This document shows, piece by piece, positions 22,223-40,781 of a stretch of 40,781 bases of DNA. The stretch lies in the IMG/VR virus record IMGVR_UViG_3300042923_000773, positions 1 through 40,781 of that record; one strand, written 5' to 3'. Numbering within the stretch: the first letter of the stretch is position 1; each line of letters begins with the position of its first letter. Under the pieces are notes generated by a model. The model was not told the origin of the DNA, searched no databases, and worked only from the letters and a program-made list of their open reading frames with translations. This DNA is from a virus. Both the position numbers and the translations under genes were made by a program.

Positions 22223-22389
22223 CGGAACAGCGACCGAAACCAAGGATCAGGATCTACGCCGACGGCAAGCGGTACTACTTGATCGACGCACATCAGTACT
22301 GGATCGGGGTTGCTTTCGTAGCGATGGGATTCCTCAACGCCGGGTCGTGGCTCTTGGCAACGGCGCTCAGGCTGTTGCTCGCCGTGTAA
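22219..22389 (+). CDS. 56-residue membrane protein after tail fibre
   Basis: Starts in an ATGA overlap with the tail-fibre stop. A basic, Tyr-rich N-terminus (RIRIYADGKRYYLIDAHQYW) is followed by a membrane span (IGVAFVAMGFLNAGSWLLATALRLLLAV). Its last 97 bp overlap the 3' end of the convergent polymerase-like gene. It may be a further holin-type protein; function unknown. Confidence 0.6.
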   Translation: MTEQRPKPRIRIYADGKRYYLIDAHQYWIGVAFVAMGFLNAGSWLLATALRLLLAV

Positions 22390-23654
22390 CTATCGCCGCG
22401 GAGGGAAACCGCTACGAGCGCCGCGGGGATGAACCATGTCGGGAACGTCACGTAGGACGAGTCGATCACCGCGCCGATGAAGAGGACGACCAGGATGAGC
22501 CGCCATTCTGGTCGCCTCTTCATCAGCGTCACCACAGCAGCGATGAGCAGAAGCGCGCCGAGGATCCCGATCTGCAGCAGCACGCCCACCCAGCCATCGG
22601 GAACGCCGGCTCGAGTGTCCGCACCGAGCAAGAGGTCGGTGGGGGTCATCGCGGAAAGGTAAGTCGCCCAGATAGCGGATCGGCCCGAACCCCCGGAGCT
22701 AATCACGGCGTCCACGGTGTAGCGCCGCGCGAGGTCGGGTTCGAGGACGAGGACGGCTCCCGCCACTAGGAGCGTTATGGCGACGATCCCGACCCGCCAC
22801 CGCATACTGCCCCGGCGGAGCACGAGGATGAGAATCGCTGCGCCGGCTGCGAGGATCGCCGTCCGTGAACCCGAGAGTCCGATTGCCAGCACGCTCCCGA
22901 CGGCGACCGCGACGTCGAGTTTCGTGCCGCGCCTGGCGAGGAGTCGGATCATGGCGTGCGTCAGGAACACCGCAGCGGCCAGGCCGTAGATGTTGCCGTT
23001 GTGGTACGTCGAGGGGATCTTGGAGAAGTTCTCGCCGCCCTGCACGTAGATCACGTTGTGCTTCTCGGTGATGTCATCTCCGAGGGCCTGGGTGAGGCCG
23101 GGGATAGCAGTGGCTTCGAGTCCGCCGACGAACTGGACGCCGGCGTAAAGGACCGAGAAGAGAAAGCCCCATTGCAGGGCGCGCGCGAAACGTGGGTCGA
23201 CCTCGACTGTGCTCGTGGTCATGGCGAGTACGACGATCGGGAGAGCGGCCCACGCCACGAAAGCGAAGACACTCGCGGGGCCATCGGAAGCGAACTGCAG
23301 GGCTTTCGCGGCAACGAGTGTCAGGTATGCACCCACGAAAAGGACGGTCGTCGGCGGGTGCGTGCGCCGAGGGGAACTCACCCAGAGGATGAAGACCGCG
23401 GCCATCAGCCCGAACAGGAAGACGGGAAAGGGGAACTCTCCGACCTTGACGCCAGCCTTCGGAAAGGCGGCGGTCAGGAAAGCGAGAACGCTGGCCGCGA
23501 TCACCGGACGCCGCCAAGCCCACAGGAGGAGACCCAGAACGGCGGTGACACCCAGACCGGCCACGGGGGAGACCATCGTCAGAATCACGACCGCGACGGT
23601 TGCAACGCAACCCCCAGCGACCGCCATAACCGTTCGCCAGGCCGTGTCCCCCAT
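22293..23654 (-). CDS. O-antigen ligase/polymerase-type membrane protein
   Basis: A 453-residue protein with about ten to twelve membrane spans. A long outside loop lies at about 176-224 (includes TEKHNVIYV and YHNGN), followed by the family hallmark GLSGSRTAIL (259-268) and GRSAIWATYL (324-333). This is the Wzy/WaaL layout: glycan polymerase or ligase acting on lipid-linked sugars outside the membrane. The reading frame is open for 66 more codons upstream, but ATG 23654 lies seven bases after TAGTGT, a leaderless promoter. It is on the strand opposite to the structural genes, next to the lysogeny module. Phage D3 of Pseudomonas uses such an enzyme for serotype conversion; the same role here is inference. 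Confidence 0.85.
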   Translation of the reverse strand: MGDTAWRTVMAVAGGCVATVAVVILTMVSPVAGLGVTAVLGLLLWAWRRPVIAASVLAFLTAAFPKAGVKVGEFPFPVFLFGLMAAVFILWVSSPRRTHPPTTVLFVGAYLTLVAAKALQFASDGPASVFAFVAWAALPIVVLAMTTSTVEVDPRFARALQWGFLFSVLYAGVQFVGGLEATAIPGLTQALGDDITEKHNVIYVQGGENFSKIPSTYHNGNIYGLAAAVFLTHAMIRLLARRGTKLDVAVAVGSVLAIGLSGSRTAILAAGAAILILVLRRGSMRWRVGIVAITLLVAGAVLVLEPDLARRYTVDAVISSGGSGRSAIWATYLSAMTPTDLLLGADTRAGVPDGWVGVLLQIGILGALLLIAAVVTLMKRRPEWRLILVVLFIGAVIDSSYVTFPTWFIPAALVAVSLRGDSYTASNSLSAVAKSHDPALRNPIATKATPIQY

Positions 23655-23700
23655 AGCGGGAACACTATCCCAGGCGCCCGGCCGGTGTAGCTTGAGTGGC
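23655..23700. promoter_or_regulatory. Divergent pair of leaderless promoters
   Basis: On the minus strand TAGTGT (plus-strand 23662-23667) ends seven bases before ATG 23654. On the plus strand TAGCTT (23688-23693) ends seven bases before GTG 23701. Both genes lack a ribosome site. No good -35 is seen for either. The whole 46-bp gap is thus a back-to-back promoter pair. Confidence 0.6.
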
Positions 23701-23895
23701 GTGAACAAAGGCAGCCTCGTCCTGTGGCTTCTCGTCGTCGGCGCCTCGCTCGCCGCGGTCGGATACATGAACCTCATCGTCGTCACCGACCCGGGGCCCG
23801 TCGACTGGGCCGTCCGGTGGGCCGGGACGATCGCCGTAGTTGCGATGCTCATGGCTGCGATCGCGCGAGTCCTCTACCGACCAGACGAGTCCTGA
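23701..23895 (+). CDS. 64-residue two-span membrane protein
   Basis: Starts at GTG with a leaderless-type promoter. It has two spans (VLWLLVVGASLAAVGYMNLIVV and AGTIAVVAMLMAAIARVLY) and a short acidic end. It is transcribed away from the polymerase-like gene from the same 46-bp gap, so the two may be expressed together in the lysogen. A terminator follows 22 bp later. Family unknown; it could be a partner protein or an unrelated exclusion protein. Confidence 0.7.
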   Translation: MNKGSLVLWLLVVGASLAAVGYMNLIVVTDPGPVDWAVRWAGTIAVVAMLMAAIARVLYRPDES

Positions 23896-25112: not shown

Positions 25113-25166
25113 TCATCTTCTGGCTGCCACCTCGCCCCACCGGCCTGGGTTCGTTGCACTGGTCAT
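25113..25166 (-). CDS. Possible 17-residue leaderless peptide
   Basis: Reverse-strand ATG 25166 lies six bases after TACGCT, and translation gives MTSATNPGRWGEVAARR before a stop that overlaps a further ATG. The promoter is good, but the peptide is tiny and resembles nothing known. It may be a coincidental frame in a short regulatory RNA that would end at the terminator near 25000. Confidence 0.25.
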   Translation of the reverse strand: MTSATNPGRWGEVAARR

Positions 25167-25173
25167 GTGGCCA
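25160..25173. promoter_or_regulatory. Third repressor operator copy
   Basis: TGGTCATGTGGCCA matches the operators at 27213 and 27305 (13 of 14 with CGGTCATGTGACCA outside the first base, and 12 of 14 with TGGTCATATGACCA). It also covers the -10/start area of the reverse promoter, as at the repressor gene. Confidence 0.65.
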
Positions 25174-25223: not shown

Positions 25224-25477
25224 GTGTGCACTTCTGTGTGCACCGGCTTGACGACTCGGGGCCGAGTCCTGTACAACTAAAGGGCAGGCGCACCACAATG
25301 GGGACAACACCGGTTCCGTCCTAAGGAAATGGTTGGGGTTTCGAATACCTCCAGGGGCACACCGATCGGCCCGGAAATCGCCTAGATTCCGGGACGAGCA
25401 CCCTCAATGTCGGTAGCACCTGCAAAGATAGAAATCGCAGGTGCATGTGTGCACCTATGTGACACCTAGTGTGCACC
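25224..25477. other. attP: Putative attP with arm-type boxes
   Basis: GTGTGCAC(C) occurs at 25224-25231, 25236-25244, 25447-25455 and 25469-25477, in two direct pairs about 200 bp apart, with a degenerate copy GTGACACC at 25459. Paired short repeats on either side of a core are the standard layout of tyrosine-integrase arm sites. The last copy abuts the integrase ribosome site, so binding could also repress int. The core cannot be named without the host site. Confidence 0.45.
25248..25277 (+). promoter_or_regulatory. Probable integrase promoter
   Basis: TTGACG (25248-25253) and TACAAC (25272-25277) with an 18-bp spacer, directly downstream of two GTGTGCAC boxes and about 210 bp before the integrase start. 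The -35 is close to consensus; the -10 lacks the final T in register. Confidence 0.5.
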
Positions 25478-25489
25478 AAGGGGGCACGG

Positions 25490-26770
25490 ATGCCGAAGAC
25501 ACGTGGAGCGGGCGAAGGCGGCCTGTACGAACTCAAAGGCCGAGGCCTCTGGCGTGGCGTAGTCGATGTAGGGTTCGGCCCAGACGGCAAGCGGAAGCAG
25601 AAGTCGGTCACCGCCAAGACTAAGACTGCAGCCCGAGACAAGCTGAACAAGCTGCGCGCCGAGATCGCCGAGTACGGCGCTCCTCTAGACAAGGCCATGA
25701 CGGTTGAAGCATGGGCCAACCACTGGCTCGACACCGTCTGCCGCAACACCCTCAAGCCGAGCGCCCTGAAGGCATATCAATCGACCGTGCGCGCATGGAT
25801 CGTCCCCACTATCGGCCGCAAGCGGATCTCACTCCTGAAGCCCTCCGACGTGCGCGCCGTCATGCAGGCCGCGACCGACGCAGGCCGCAAGCCGACCACC
25901 GCGGAAAAGATCCACACGGTCATGAGCTCGATGCTCGAGTCCGCCCGCCTCGACGGGCTAATCGGCAGGAACGTCGTCGCCGACGTGCAGGCGCCTGGCG
26001 CGGGTGAATCAGCGCGAGGAGCGCTGACCACACCCGACGCCCTAAACATCCTCACACGCTCCATGAAGCACGTAGACGGCACCCGCTGGTGGGTGGCGCT
26101 GCTCGCCGGCATGCGCCAAGGCGAACGGCTGGGCGCGACGCTCGACAGCCTGGACTTCGAACGCCACGAGTTCCGAGTGAAATGGTCACTGACCGAGGCG
26201 ACGTTCGAGCACGGATGTGGGGGAGCATGCGCGGCAAAGCGGGCCGGCTCATGCCCAGACCGGAAGCTGGTGCTCGCCCCCGGCCTGGTTCACCGCCCGC
26301 TTGACGGCCGTCTCATTCTGGTCCGCCCGAAGTCGGGCAAGGAGCGAACGTTCCCGCTCATCCCGCAGCTGGAGGACGCGCTCATTAGGTACCTCGAGGC
26401 AACCGACCATCTGCCGAACCCGCACGGGCTCATCTGGCGCAACCTGAAAGACGGGTCACCCATAACTTCAGCTGAAGATCAAGCCGCTTGGCGATCGCTG
26501 CTGCTCGAGGTAGGCGTCATCACGGAGGGTCAAGCGAAGGAGCGAAAGGACCGCGAACCGGGTACGCCGCCTATCCCCACAACGCACTGGGCCCGCCATA
26601 CGACGGCCACCGTGCTCATGGAGTTGGGCGTGGATCCGCGCATCGTGGGTGAGATAGTTGGGCACACCACAACGCGGGTGACTGAGCGGTACCAGCACGT
26701 TTCGTCGGAAGCCGCAAGGGCTGCGATGACGGCTATTGGCACTCATTTCTCCCGTGCGCTCGACCAGTAG
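25490..26770 (+). CDS. int: Tyrosine integrase
   Basis: A 426-residue site-specific recombinase. N-terminal AP2-like arm-binding region (about 10-62), SAM-like core-binding domain (about 68-160) and C-terminal catalytic domain with R209 (GMRQGE), H366 and R369 (HWARHT), H392 (GHTTTRV) and nucleophile Y401 (TERYQHV). A Cys/His insert HGCGGACAAKRAGSCP (241-256) is common in actinophage integrases. ATG 25490 has AAGGGGG five bases upstream and is preferred over GTG 25469, which lies inside a GTGTGCACC box. It would integrate the phage at attP. Confidence 0.96.
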   Translation: MPKTRGAGEGGLYELKGRGLWRGVVDVGFGPDGKRKQKSVTAKTKTAARDKLNKLRAEIAEYGAPLDKAMTVEAWANHWLDTVCRNTLKPSALKAYQSTVRAWIVPTIGRKRISLLKPSDVRAVMQAATDAGRKPTTAEKIHTVMSSMLESARLDGLIGRNVVADVQAPGAGESARGALTTPDALNILTRSMKHVDGTRWWVALLAGMRQGERLGATLDSLDFERHEFRVKWSLTEATFEHGCGGACAAKRAGSCPDRKLVLAPGLVHRPLDGRLILVRPKSGKERTFPLIPQLEDALIRYLEATDHLPNPHGLIWRNLKDGSPITSAEDQAAWRSLLLEVGVITEGQAKERKDREPGTPPIPTTHWARHTTATVLMELGVDPRIVGEIVGHTTTRVTERYQHVSSEAARAAMTAIGTHFSRALDQ

Positions 26771-26858
26771 CAAGGCGACCCTTGCTACTGGCGACTACTC
26801 GACTTCCTGCTGATTTCTCAGATTGGCGCGGGCGCGTTGTCCGACCTAACCACTAGTG

Positions 26859-26874
26859 TCGAACAAACATTCGA
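26859..26874. promoter_or_regulatory. SOS (LexA) box-like palindrome
   Basis: TCGAACAAACATTCGA differs by one base from the actinobacterial LexA box TCGAAC-N4-GTTCGA. A TAGTGT hexamer (26854-26859) touches its left edge, so a bound LexA would cover the start of a transcript reading into the small gene at 26902. Confidence 0.5.
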
Positions 26875-26901
26875 ACGCCCCCGGCAGCAAGGGAGCCACC
26901 C

Positions 26902-27009
26902 GTGGCCTCAGAAGGACCGACAGTCGCAGACGCAAGCGCGGTTGCAGCAGTACTAGGCATCACCCTGGAGACGCTTCTGGAGGTATTTCGTCCGCGCCTC
27001 CTTGATTAG
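26902..27009 (+). CDS. 35-residue peptide convergent with repressor
   Basis: A GTG frame with a good ribosome site (AAGGGAG, about 6 bases upstream). The peptide is a predicted amphipathic helix (VADASAVAAVLGITLETLLEVF). Its 3' half overlaps the end of the repressor gene by 57 bp on the other strand. The SOS-like box 28 bp upstream suggests damage control, so a role in prophage induction (antirepressor peptide or antisense effect) is possible but unproven. Confidence 0.45.
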   Translation: MASEGPTVADASAVAAVLGITLETLLEVFRPRLLD

Positions 27010-27219
27010 CTCGTCGGGCGTGGTCCCCAACGCGCCAGCGACAGCGATAAGAAACTCAAGAGGGAGCCGGCGGTCAAGCGCTAGATAGTTGCGAGTCGAG
27101 TCGTAGGGCCGTCCCATCTGGCGGGCCAACTCGCTAACTGACATCCGGTTGTTCGCGCCGATAGCGGCGTTGATGGCATCCACAATGGCGTGCTCGAGCG
27201 CGAGGTGTTCATCGGTCAT
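26953..27219 (-). CDS. Immunity repressor, helix-turn-helix
   Basis: An 88-residue protein with a helix-turn-helix at about 26-48 (MSVSELARQMGRPYDSTRNY) and a short C-terminal helical end. It is small for a repressor and lacks a protease-type domain, so induction cannot rely on self-cleavage. ATG 27219 is chosen because reverse TACGCT ends six bases before it; the longer frame from 27261 has no start signal. It faces the Cro-like gene across a 92-bp operator region, the usual genetic switch. Confidence 0.8.
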   Translation of the reverse strand: MTDEHLALEHAIVDAINAAIGANNRMSVSELARQMGRPYDSTRNYLALDRRLPLEFLIAVAGALGTTPDELIKEARTKYLQKRLQGDA

Positions 27220-27226
27220 GTGACCA
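27213..27226. promoter_or_regulatory. Repressor operator at its own start
   Basis: CGGTCATGTGACCA, with perfect GGTCA/TGACC arms, overlaps the repressor start codon (27217-27219) and touches its -10 (plus 27226-27231). It allows autoregulation. Confidence 0.65.
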
Positions 27227-27255
27227 GCGTACGCGGGGGTAGCCGAGAAAGTTAT

Positions 27256-27271
27256 GGCCAAACGGCCAGAA
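27256..27271. repeat. GGCCAAACGGCCAGAA motif shared with int region
   Basis: Fifteen of sixteen bases match 25182-25197 (GGCCGAACGGCCAGAA). In both places it lies near a GGTCATGTG operator. It may be a second binding site, for example for Cro or a host factor. Confidence 0.5.
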
Positions 27272-27276
27272 ACTAC

Positions 27277-27318
27277 TTGCGTATGGCTGACCGACCAGAT
27301 ACTCTGGTCATATGACCA
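27277..27318 (+). promoter_or_regulatory. Early lytic promoter with operator
   Basis: TTGCGT (27277-27282), a 17-bp spacer and TACTCT (27300-27305) end six bases before ATG 27312, so the transcript is leaderless. The perfect palindrome TGGTCATATGACCA (27305-27318) covers the transcription start and start codon. Repressor bound there would block the early operon. Confidence 0.75.
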
Positions 27319-27557
27319 CAGCCCACAGACTCGCGGAACGAGTTGAAGCCATCCGGGCCGCTCGAGGGATGACCGTCAAGGACCTCTCCGAAACGACCGG
27401 GATCGCGGACAAGACTCTCCGCAGACGCCTCGCCCACCCCGACAAGTTCGCATTCAACGAGTTCGACAGCATCTGCGCCGCGCTCTCCGTTGACTCCGCC
27501 AACGTCCTCAACTTCAACATCGACGTTGAAGCCCTCCTGAGAGAAGTTGCGGCATGA
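27312..27557 (+). CDS. Cro-like helix-turn-helix protein
   Basis: An 81-residue protein with a helix-turn-helix at about 20-40 (MTVKDLSETTGIADKTLRRR). First gene rightward from the switch, divergent from the repressor, hence Cro-like. It overlaps the next gene by ATGA. Confidence 0.8.
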   Translation: MTTAHRLAERVEAIRAARGMTVKDLSETTGIADKTLRRRLAHPDKFAFNEFDSICAALSVDSANVLNFNIDVEALLREVAA

Positions 27558-27763
27558 GTGCCGGCGTCGTGCAGCGGATCGAGTTTCCGCCGGCACTGTT
27601 CACCCGAGAACTCGCCGCCTACTACCTTTCCAAGTCTCTCCGCGAAGTCGATGACCTGAAGAAATCCGGTCACCTGATCCCTGTAGGCCAAGGCAAGCGA
27701 GTCCTGTTCGCAAAGCAGGAACTCGACCGGTACGTCTCCGAGCTCCCGGAGCGTGCATCATGA
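27554..27763 (+). CDS. Excisionase-like DNA-binding protein
   Basis: A 69-residue protein with the winged-helix excisionase pattern 'FTRELAAYYLSKSLREVDDLKKSGHLIPVGQGKRVLFAKQELDRYV'. Placed in the early operon after Cro, it would direct excision with the integrase. MerR/Xis-type small proteins can also be transcription factors. Confidence 0.75.
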   Translation: MSAGVVQRIEFPPALFTRELAAYYLSKSLREVDDLKKSGHLIPVGQGKRVLFAKQELDRYVSELPERAS

Positions 27764-28209
27764 CCGCGGTGCACACGCCCGAGCTTGACCGGGCATACCT
27801 CGATTTCGCGGAAACCATCCCTGTCTACTTCGCGCTGAGCGGGGCTACGGACGAGGTCAAGATCGGTTTCTCGAGCGACGTGCGTGCACGAATCCGCCTC
27901 CTCAACAATGAGGGGCGGTTCACCGGCAGGACCGGTGTTGCGCTTCTCGGATGGATGCGCGGCGGGCCTCGCCTGGAGGAAGAGTTTCACGCACTGTTCG
28001 CCGAGCACCGCACTAAGGGCGAGTGGTTCAAGTCCGTCCCCGAGATGGCTGACGTTCTCGCTCAACGCGGATTTCAGGGAGAACCGCCGATCGTGAAGAA
28101 CCCCGCGTTCCGGGTGCTCACGTTCGGATACCGCGCTGCGCGTAACCGCGTCGCTCAGGTCGACGTGTACGCCCAGCCAGCCCGCTCCAAGGCGCGGAGG
28201 GCATCATGA
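27760..28209 (+). CDS. GIY-YIG-like (T5orf172/MUG113-type) protein
   Basis: A 149-residue protein with 'VYFALSGATDEVKIGFSSDVRARIRLLNNEG', then 'RLEEEFHALFAEHRTKGEWFK'. This is the pattern of T5orf172/MUG113 domains of the GIY-YIG nuclease superfamily: KIGFS in strand two, a conserved E..FH helix and a GEWF end. Nuclease activity is possible but unproven. A shorter relative lies at 34317-34658. ATGA overlaps both sides. Confidence 0.7.
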   Translation: MTAVHTPELDRAYLDFAETIPVYFALSGATDEVKIGFSSDVRARIRLLNNEGRFTGRTGVALLGWMRGGPRLEEEFHALFAEHRTKGEWFKSVPEMADVLAQRGFQGEPPIVKNPAFRVLTFGYRAARNRVAQVDVYAQPARSKARRAS

Positions 28210-40395: not shown

Positions 40396-40629
40396 TCATT
40401 CCTCCCGGGTGGCTCGCTTGGCAAAGCGGCGAATGCTCGGTCGAGGAAATGGCCGCCCACGTGACACGGGCCGGCCGACCATCTCGTTGCGGGTGCGCGC
40501 GACGAGAACCCACAAACACGCCCCTCGCATCATCGTGCGCGGCGTCAAACGGCGGAGCCGACAATCAGTCGCGGCCGCCACCCTCAAAATTTCACATAGC
40601 CGAGTTCCCCTGACGACAGGAAACGAACC
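40396..40629. other. Right-end non-coding region, possible cos
   Basis: About 230 bp between the terminator and the first gene of the next unit. Frames exist on both strands but look Arg/Pro/Ser-rich without start signals. In related phages the cohesive ends lie in this position, before the small DNA-binding gene and terminase. I see no exact cos signature. Confidence 0.5.
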
Positions 40630-40781
40630 GTGGCTCTCCTCGAGACCCTCAGCAACCCGCCCCAAAGAAGCACCGGCGGAAGATCCGTCATCGACATCTG
40701 GATCGACACCCTCAGCCCCGAAGACCACAACGCCGTGCTCGCCGCAGCACGCAACCCCGCCTGGCGACACACCGACCTCCT
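40547..40781. repeat. Right copy of 235-bp direct repeat
   Basis: Matches 1-235 with four substitutions, at 40674, 40710, 40715 and 40741. The repeat is cut by the window end, so its true length is unknown. Confidence 0.95.
40630..40781 (+). CDS. Second, partial copy of left-end small protein
   Basis: The GTG start and first 50 codons of the gene seen at 84-329. Two of the four changes are silent (third positions); the other two change Asn to Ser and Thr to Ala. The pattern fits natural divergence better than random read errors. The gene runs beyond the window. Confidence 0.85.
   Translation, partial: MALLETLSNPPQRSTGGRSVIDIWIDTLSPEDHNAVLAAARNPAWRHTDL

Follow-up and report, generated by a model that had tools for sequence, protein, structure and literature searches.

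A LexA-associated small gene facing the repressor gene in a relative of Microbacterium phages: a probable SOS-controlled antirepressor

Phage repressors of the S24 type undergo RecA-stimulated self-cleavage. In the Salmonella Gifsy prophages, the small, directly LexA-controlled antirepressors GfoA, GftA and GfhA inactivate a non-cleaved phage repressor upon DNA damage, and the LexA-controlled antirepressors of coliphage 186 (Tum) and N15 have been cited as similar (PMC3121763). LexA-controlled antirepressors are therefore a known kind of protein, and we propose the same logic for a peptide encoded in the virus record IMGVR_UViG_3300042923_000773 of IMG/VR, the whole of which (40,781 nucleotides, hereafter the window) was analysed. 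The peptide is the product of a 35-codon gene that is preceded by a LexA (SOS) box. Unlike the Gifsy genes, it is convergent with the repressor gene and overlaps it, and its predicted product resembles the C-terminal helices of the repressor itself. The 186 and N15 antirepressors are not known to resemble it in sequence or location.

Two other described systems bear comparison with the window locus. SinI of Bacillus subtilis, which is under the control of Spo0A, is a short two-helix protein like the C-terminal two-helix hook of SinR, with which it forms an inactive heterodimer (PMC3163267). The window peptide is likewise predicted to have two helices and resembles the last two helices of the repressor. 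However, the hook of SinR lies outside its helix-turn-helix (HTH) domain, whereas the apparently copied helices 4 and 5 of the window repressor end this domain. The TF-smORF (transcription factor, small open reading frame) induction modules of phages do not depend on DNA damage: a phage transcription factor drives them, and the repressor is inactivated by a small protein whose gene lies beside that of a regulator (PMC10432266). The window locus is like these modules in that a small protein adjoins a regulator and differs from them in its trigger, since a LexA box is present here. We found no paper on the family described below or on its convergent, overlapping arrangement, most subscription papers being outside the search. 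As far as we found, the sensing of DNA damage by actinobacterial temperate phages with short non-cleavable repressors has not been described.

A first-pass annotation of the window had reported a LexA box with one mismatch, touching a TAGTGT hexamer and lying shortly before a 35-codon gene with a ribosome-binding site. This gene was said to converge on, and to overlap by 57 bp, the end of the gene for a repressor without self-cleavage. All of these features are present (Table 1). The small gene runs from a GTG to a TAG codon and begins 27 nt past the box. The AlphaFold2 (AF2) model of the repressor has five helices (predicted local distance difference test score, pLDDT, of 85). Its top Foldseek matches are XRE-type regulators (best E 1.7e-3), with SinR and the SinR-SinI complex among the weak matches. 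A search for an S24 self-cleavage domain found none, as expected for the repressors against which LexA-controlled antirepressors act, and self-cleavage is unlikely because the protein consists of one HTH domain and has no peptidase domain.

The box differs at one position from the symmetric TCGAAC-N4-GTTCGA and is the sole match in the window with three or fewer mismatches, where shuffled sequences give 0.30. For the recA-like form (TCGAA-N5-GTTCGA or its reverse), Markov models of order 1-4 expect 0.02-0.16 per window and one was observed, so the box alone is suggestive only and its conservation decides. Among recA promoters sampled from 29 Microbacterium species, 27 contain an exact TCGAA-N5-GTTCGA about 230 bp upstream of the matched start of recA. 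Read in reverse, the window box, TCGAATGTTTGTTCGA, agrees with these 27 at every fixed position, and the recA box of one species, TCGAATGTCTGTTCGA, is one base away from it. The window box therefore matches the boxes found at recA in the likely host genus. Several Microbacterium recA promoters likewise have TAGTGT at their presumed -10, and the hexamer at the same position relative to the box is TAGGCT in relative L137 and TAACCT in L140. The upstream regions of Microbacterium lexA genes (L039-L066) have a conserved CCGAA-N6-TTCGA, a variant of the recA box, about 240 bp before the matched start.

Is this arrangement conserved? Relatives were gathered by repressor similarity only (repressor searches, searches with alignments of the repressor, and tblastn against sequenced phages), without use of the box. 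Related-locus searches with single window proteins recovered no relatives, but alignments of relatives did. Including the window, and with near-identical copies left out, there were 21 distinct regions from Microbacterium, another Microbacteriaceae genome, other Micrococcales genomes, and Arthrobacter phages. Every one has an open reading frame (ORF) of 30-78 aa that is convergent with the repressor gene and shares 24-65 bp with its 3' end. Within 60 nt before the small ORF, 13 regions have an exact CGAA-N6-TTCG core, five have it with one mismatch and three with two; the exact core occurs in 0.6% of random 60-mers from the same loci and in 0.2% of Markov 60-mers. Two-mismatch boxes alone are not above chance, and the three loci that have them count by position only. 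The recA boxes of five genomes carrying related prophages share the core. The SOS control that had been suggested thus gains support from the matching position of the box at loci found independently of it. Host LexA would bind the box, and we consider it very probable that it controls the 35-codon gene. The more distant repressor relatives L171-L176 have neither box nor gene, save for a possible small ORF in L175. A separate scan of viral contigs for TAnnnT with the box returned 25 contigs. In Cryobacterium melibiosiphilum (L018:7284-7515), a related integrase is followed by a LexA-like site, GTGAACGTATGTTCGA, which TAGGGT overlaps, and then by an HTH_17/Xis-like ORF of 58 aa that converges on an unrelated repressor; this is a different protein in the same slot.

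The small ORF appears to be translated and selected as a protein. In pairs of close relatives, and in the parts outside the repressor overlap, substitutions at codon positions 1, 2 and 3 number 18, 18 and 55 (P ~1e-7); on this third-position bias, together with homology, the 35-codon ORF is almost certainly a real protein gene. The window sequence TVADASAVAAVLGITLETLLEVF matches TVAEASAYARANGMSLEELVATF of L138 (blastp E 4e-6). BLASTP of the window peptide against that of L068 gave nothing, the family link running through L138. In an alignment of 17 members T7 and G19 are invariant, and A15 is nearly so. The Shoya, Zucker and Maja proteins are longer than the others, and this type aligns with the rest of the family at an hhalign P of 2e-9; Maja gp31 weakly matches whole Cro/CI-type HTH models and resembles an entire XRE HTH. 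The 53 aa protein of L107/L141 is the most divergent member and belongs mainly by position and box. The cut-off of the SinI family (PF08671) is not reached, the best E being 0.092 for one of the 17 members, with none for the window peptide. No family for the window peptide was found in Pfam, PHROGs or NCBIfam, and the small proteins in general fall into no family of Pfam or NCBIfam. Six are annotated in Arthrobacter phages (Sarge gp31, Bauer gp42, ArV2 gp33, Maja gp31, Zucker gp41, and Shoya gp38), and the ORF is unannotated in BrayBeast, Hestia, MargaretKali, Kumotta and the examined Bridgettevirus phages. By these comparisons, the family is conserved and mostly unannotated.

What might the peptide do? 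Its profile (9-35) aligns with positions 55-81 of the repressor profile, which is helices 4-5 (hhalign P 4e-4). None of 300 column shuffles reached this score, the reversed profile fails, and an integrase control was negative. The AF2 model of the peptide is a two-helix hairpin (helices 8-18 and 22-34; pLDDT 84). The last two helices of the modelled repressor, at 54-64 and 68-84, have the same spacing, and the best ungapped sequence offset between the two proteins, 46, is also the offset of the AF2 helices. In sequence and predicted structure, then, the small protein resembles the last two helices of the repressor, as SinI resembles those of SinR. Most simply, either descent from the helix 4-5 end of such an HTH protein or imitation of it would account for the family. 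That the peptide works by mimicking the helix 4-5 hairpin has, in our estimate, an even chance of being correct.

In the lysogen, host LexA on the box would keep the 35-codon gene off, and the repressor would silence the operon of the cro-like and excisionase-like genes and probably int. DNA damage would lead to cleavage of LexA and synthesis of the peptide, which would then bind the repressor. Its presumed target is suggested by its position, by the SOS logic, and by its likeness to the repressor C-terminal helices. As a copy of the helix 4-5 hairpin, the peptide would most likely compete for the dimerisation surface and give inactive mixed dimers; such poisoning is proposed because of this likeness, by analogy with SinI and SinR. 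Derepression of cro-xis and int would follow. Since every copy found is head-on to the repressor gene, convergent transcription that enters this gene may strengthen the effect. That the small protein acts as an antirepressor we regard as quite probable. Taken as a whole, a LexA-controlled antirepressor gene that ties prophage induction to host DNA damage is the best explanation, and a likely one. More tentative, at somewhat under an even chance, is the general form of this proposal: that SOS-induced proteins of 30-78 aa in Micrococcales temperate phages arose from an HTH repressor-like protein minus its DNA-binding part, and poison the repressor through the helix 4-5 dimerisation hairpin, with possible interference from head-on transcription.

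Several observations weigh against this explanation. The nominal binomial P for the boxes, 4e-24, overstates the evidence, as the loci are related and it takes no account of their kinship. Seven Arthrobacter phage regions have a degenerate first half-box (TAGAAC and similar) and the box of L139/L068 is decayed, so that at these loci control by LexA may be weak or absent. No good -35 element is recognisable before TAGTGT in the window, and a sigma-70 scan of 26700-27600 found no promoter. For the window peptide and repressor alone the similarity is weak, with 104 of 5000 shuffles reaching its score, and it could stem from the general composition of XRE helices.

Could the transcript, rather than the peptide, be what lowers repressor levels? 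An antisense RNA was the other possibility raised in the first-pass annotation. Through antisense pairing or collision of polymerases, a LexA-controlled convergent RNA might reduce synthesis of the repressor, with the peptide incidental. With an overlap in all 21 loci such a transcript must enter the repressor gene, and no terminator was found within 26700-27600. However, the overlap is as short as 24 bp, and halting new synthesis would presumably act slowly on existing repressor. Of the two suggestions the peptide is preferred, because the ORF encodes a conserved family with third-position bias outside the overlap; an action of RNA alone is unlikely, and the action of the peptide would be on the repressor.

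The protein might have another role instead. It could be an SOS-induced excision or DNA-binding factor that works at attachment (att) sites or operators and not on the repressor protein, as the Xis-like ORF in the same slot of the Cryobacterium locus and the whole-HTH likeness of Maja gp31 might suggest. But the window peptide is predicted to consist of two helices only, with no recognition helix, and both the window and its Arthrobacter relatives already carry an excisionase-like gene beside cro; we consider this role quite improbable. An action on a different partner seems very improbable too. Cro, too, belongs to the same HTH fold class, and gp7 of GIL01 is reported to bind LexA (PMC4551915), which the peptide might alter in the same way. 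Against this, the gene always adjoins that of the repressor, and the profile alignment places the peptide on the repressor C-terminal helices, in a comparison made with the repressor. Finally, a chance box beside a spurious ORF is not a negligible expectation in a single 40 kb sequence, at 0.02-0.16 boxes, and short ORFs are common. The recurrence of the layout and of a homologous product in 20 other loci contradicts it and makes coincidence extremely unlikely. An antirepressor under LexA control thus remains the preferred explanation.

The window integrase is 63% identical to that of the Microbacterium phage vB_MoxS-R1, and short stretches of its DNA match Microbacterium phages; by these matches the window is a relative of this group. 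A direct terminal repeat of 235 bp (1-235 and 40547-40781; 98.3% identical, 4 mismatches) indicates that the contig is probably complete or circular, although the two copies differ slightly. The order of the lysogeny region is int (+), 35-codon gene (+), repressor (-), cro-like gene (+), and HTH_17 excisionase-like gene (+), and in several Arthrobacter relatives an excise gene occupies the same slot beside cro. The cro operon also encodes a MUG113/T5orf172 domain protein (27760-28209, +). Palindromes, GGTCATRTGACCA, are present at both the repressor and the cro starts and a near copy lies upstream of int, which suggests that the repressor also controls int. The phage attachment site (attP), or integration-dependent immunity, was considered for the gap between int and the repressor gene and is less likely, because upstream of int there are repeats in common with vB_MoxS-R1, together with a tRNA T-arm-like sequence. 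This T-arm-like sequence, GGGGTTTCGAATACCTC at 25333-25365, is near the repeats and is the probable attP core. Between the tail/lysis genes and int, a 519-aa ORF (22293-23852, -) has a weak O-antigen ligase (Wzy_C) match below the cut-off and is a possible lysogenic-conversion gene changing the cell surface.

Table 1. Coordinates of features in and around the lysogeny region of the window
Feature	Position	Strand	Basis or remark
LexA (SOS) box, TCGAACAAACATTCGA	26859..26874	+	Sequence match; same place in 20 related loci, 12 with exact CGAA-N6-TTCG core
TAGTGT, -10-like hexamer	26854..26859	+	Shares first base of LexA box
Ribosome-binding site AAGGGAG	26889..26895	+	Sequence
35-codon gene, proposed LexA-controlled antirepressor peptide, MASEGPTVADASAVAAVLGITLETLLEVFRPRLLD	26902..27009	+	Homologous convergent ORFs, third-position bias, AF2 hairpin
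Overlap of small gene with repressor gene 3' end, 57 bp	26953..27009		Sequence; 24-65 bp in relatives
Phage repressor, 88 aa, one HTH domain, no peptidase domain	26953..27219	-	phrog_4583 transcriptional repressor, E 1.5e-7
Tyrosine integrase	25493..26770	+	PF00589; frame open from 25469
cro-like HTH gene, divergent from repressor	27312..27557	+	Pfam HTH_26, E 6e-7
HTH_17 protein, probable excisionase, cro operon	27554..27763	+	PF12728, E 1e-4, under curated cut-off; phrog_33884
12-bp inverted repeat at int stop codon, possible terminator without T-run	26764..26791	+	Sequence
Probable repressor operator at repressor start, CGGTCATGTGACCA	27213..27226		Palindrome pair
Probable repressor operator at cro-like start, TGGTCATATGACCA	27305..27318		Perfect palindrome
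Third operator-like site, 5' of integrase, TGGTCATGTGGCCA	25160..25173		Near copy of palindromes

The proposal offers a testable answer to how DNA damage would be sensed in a broad group of phages, which includes the sequenced Arthrobacter phages Sarge, Bauer, BrayBeast, Shoya, Zucker, Maja, Bridgette and ArV2, for which there are laboratory hosts. The small-gene family is an example of the short genes that are often overlooked in annotation. The combination of a LexA box with a convergent small ORF may also serve as a marker to predict SOS-inducible prophages in actinobacteria.
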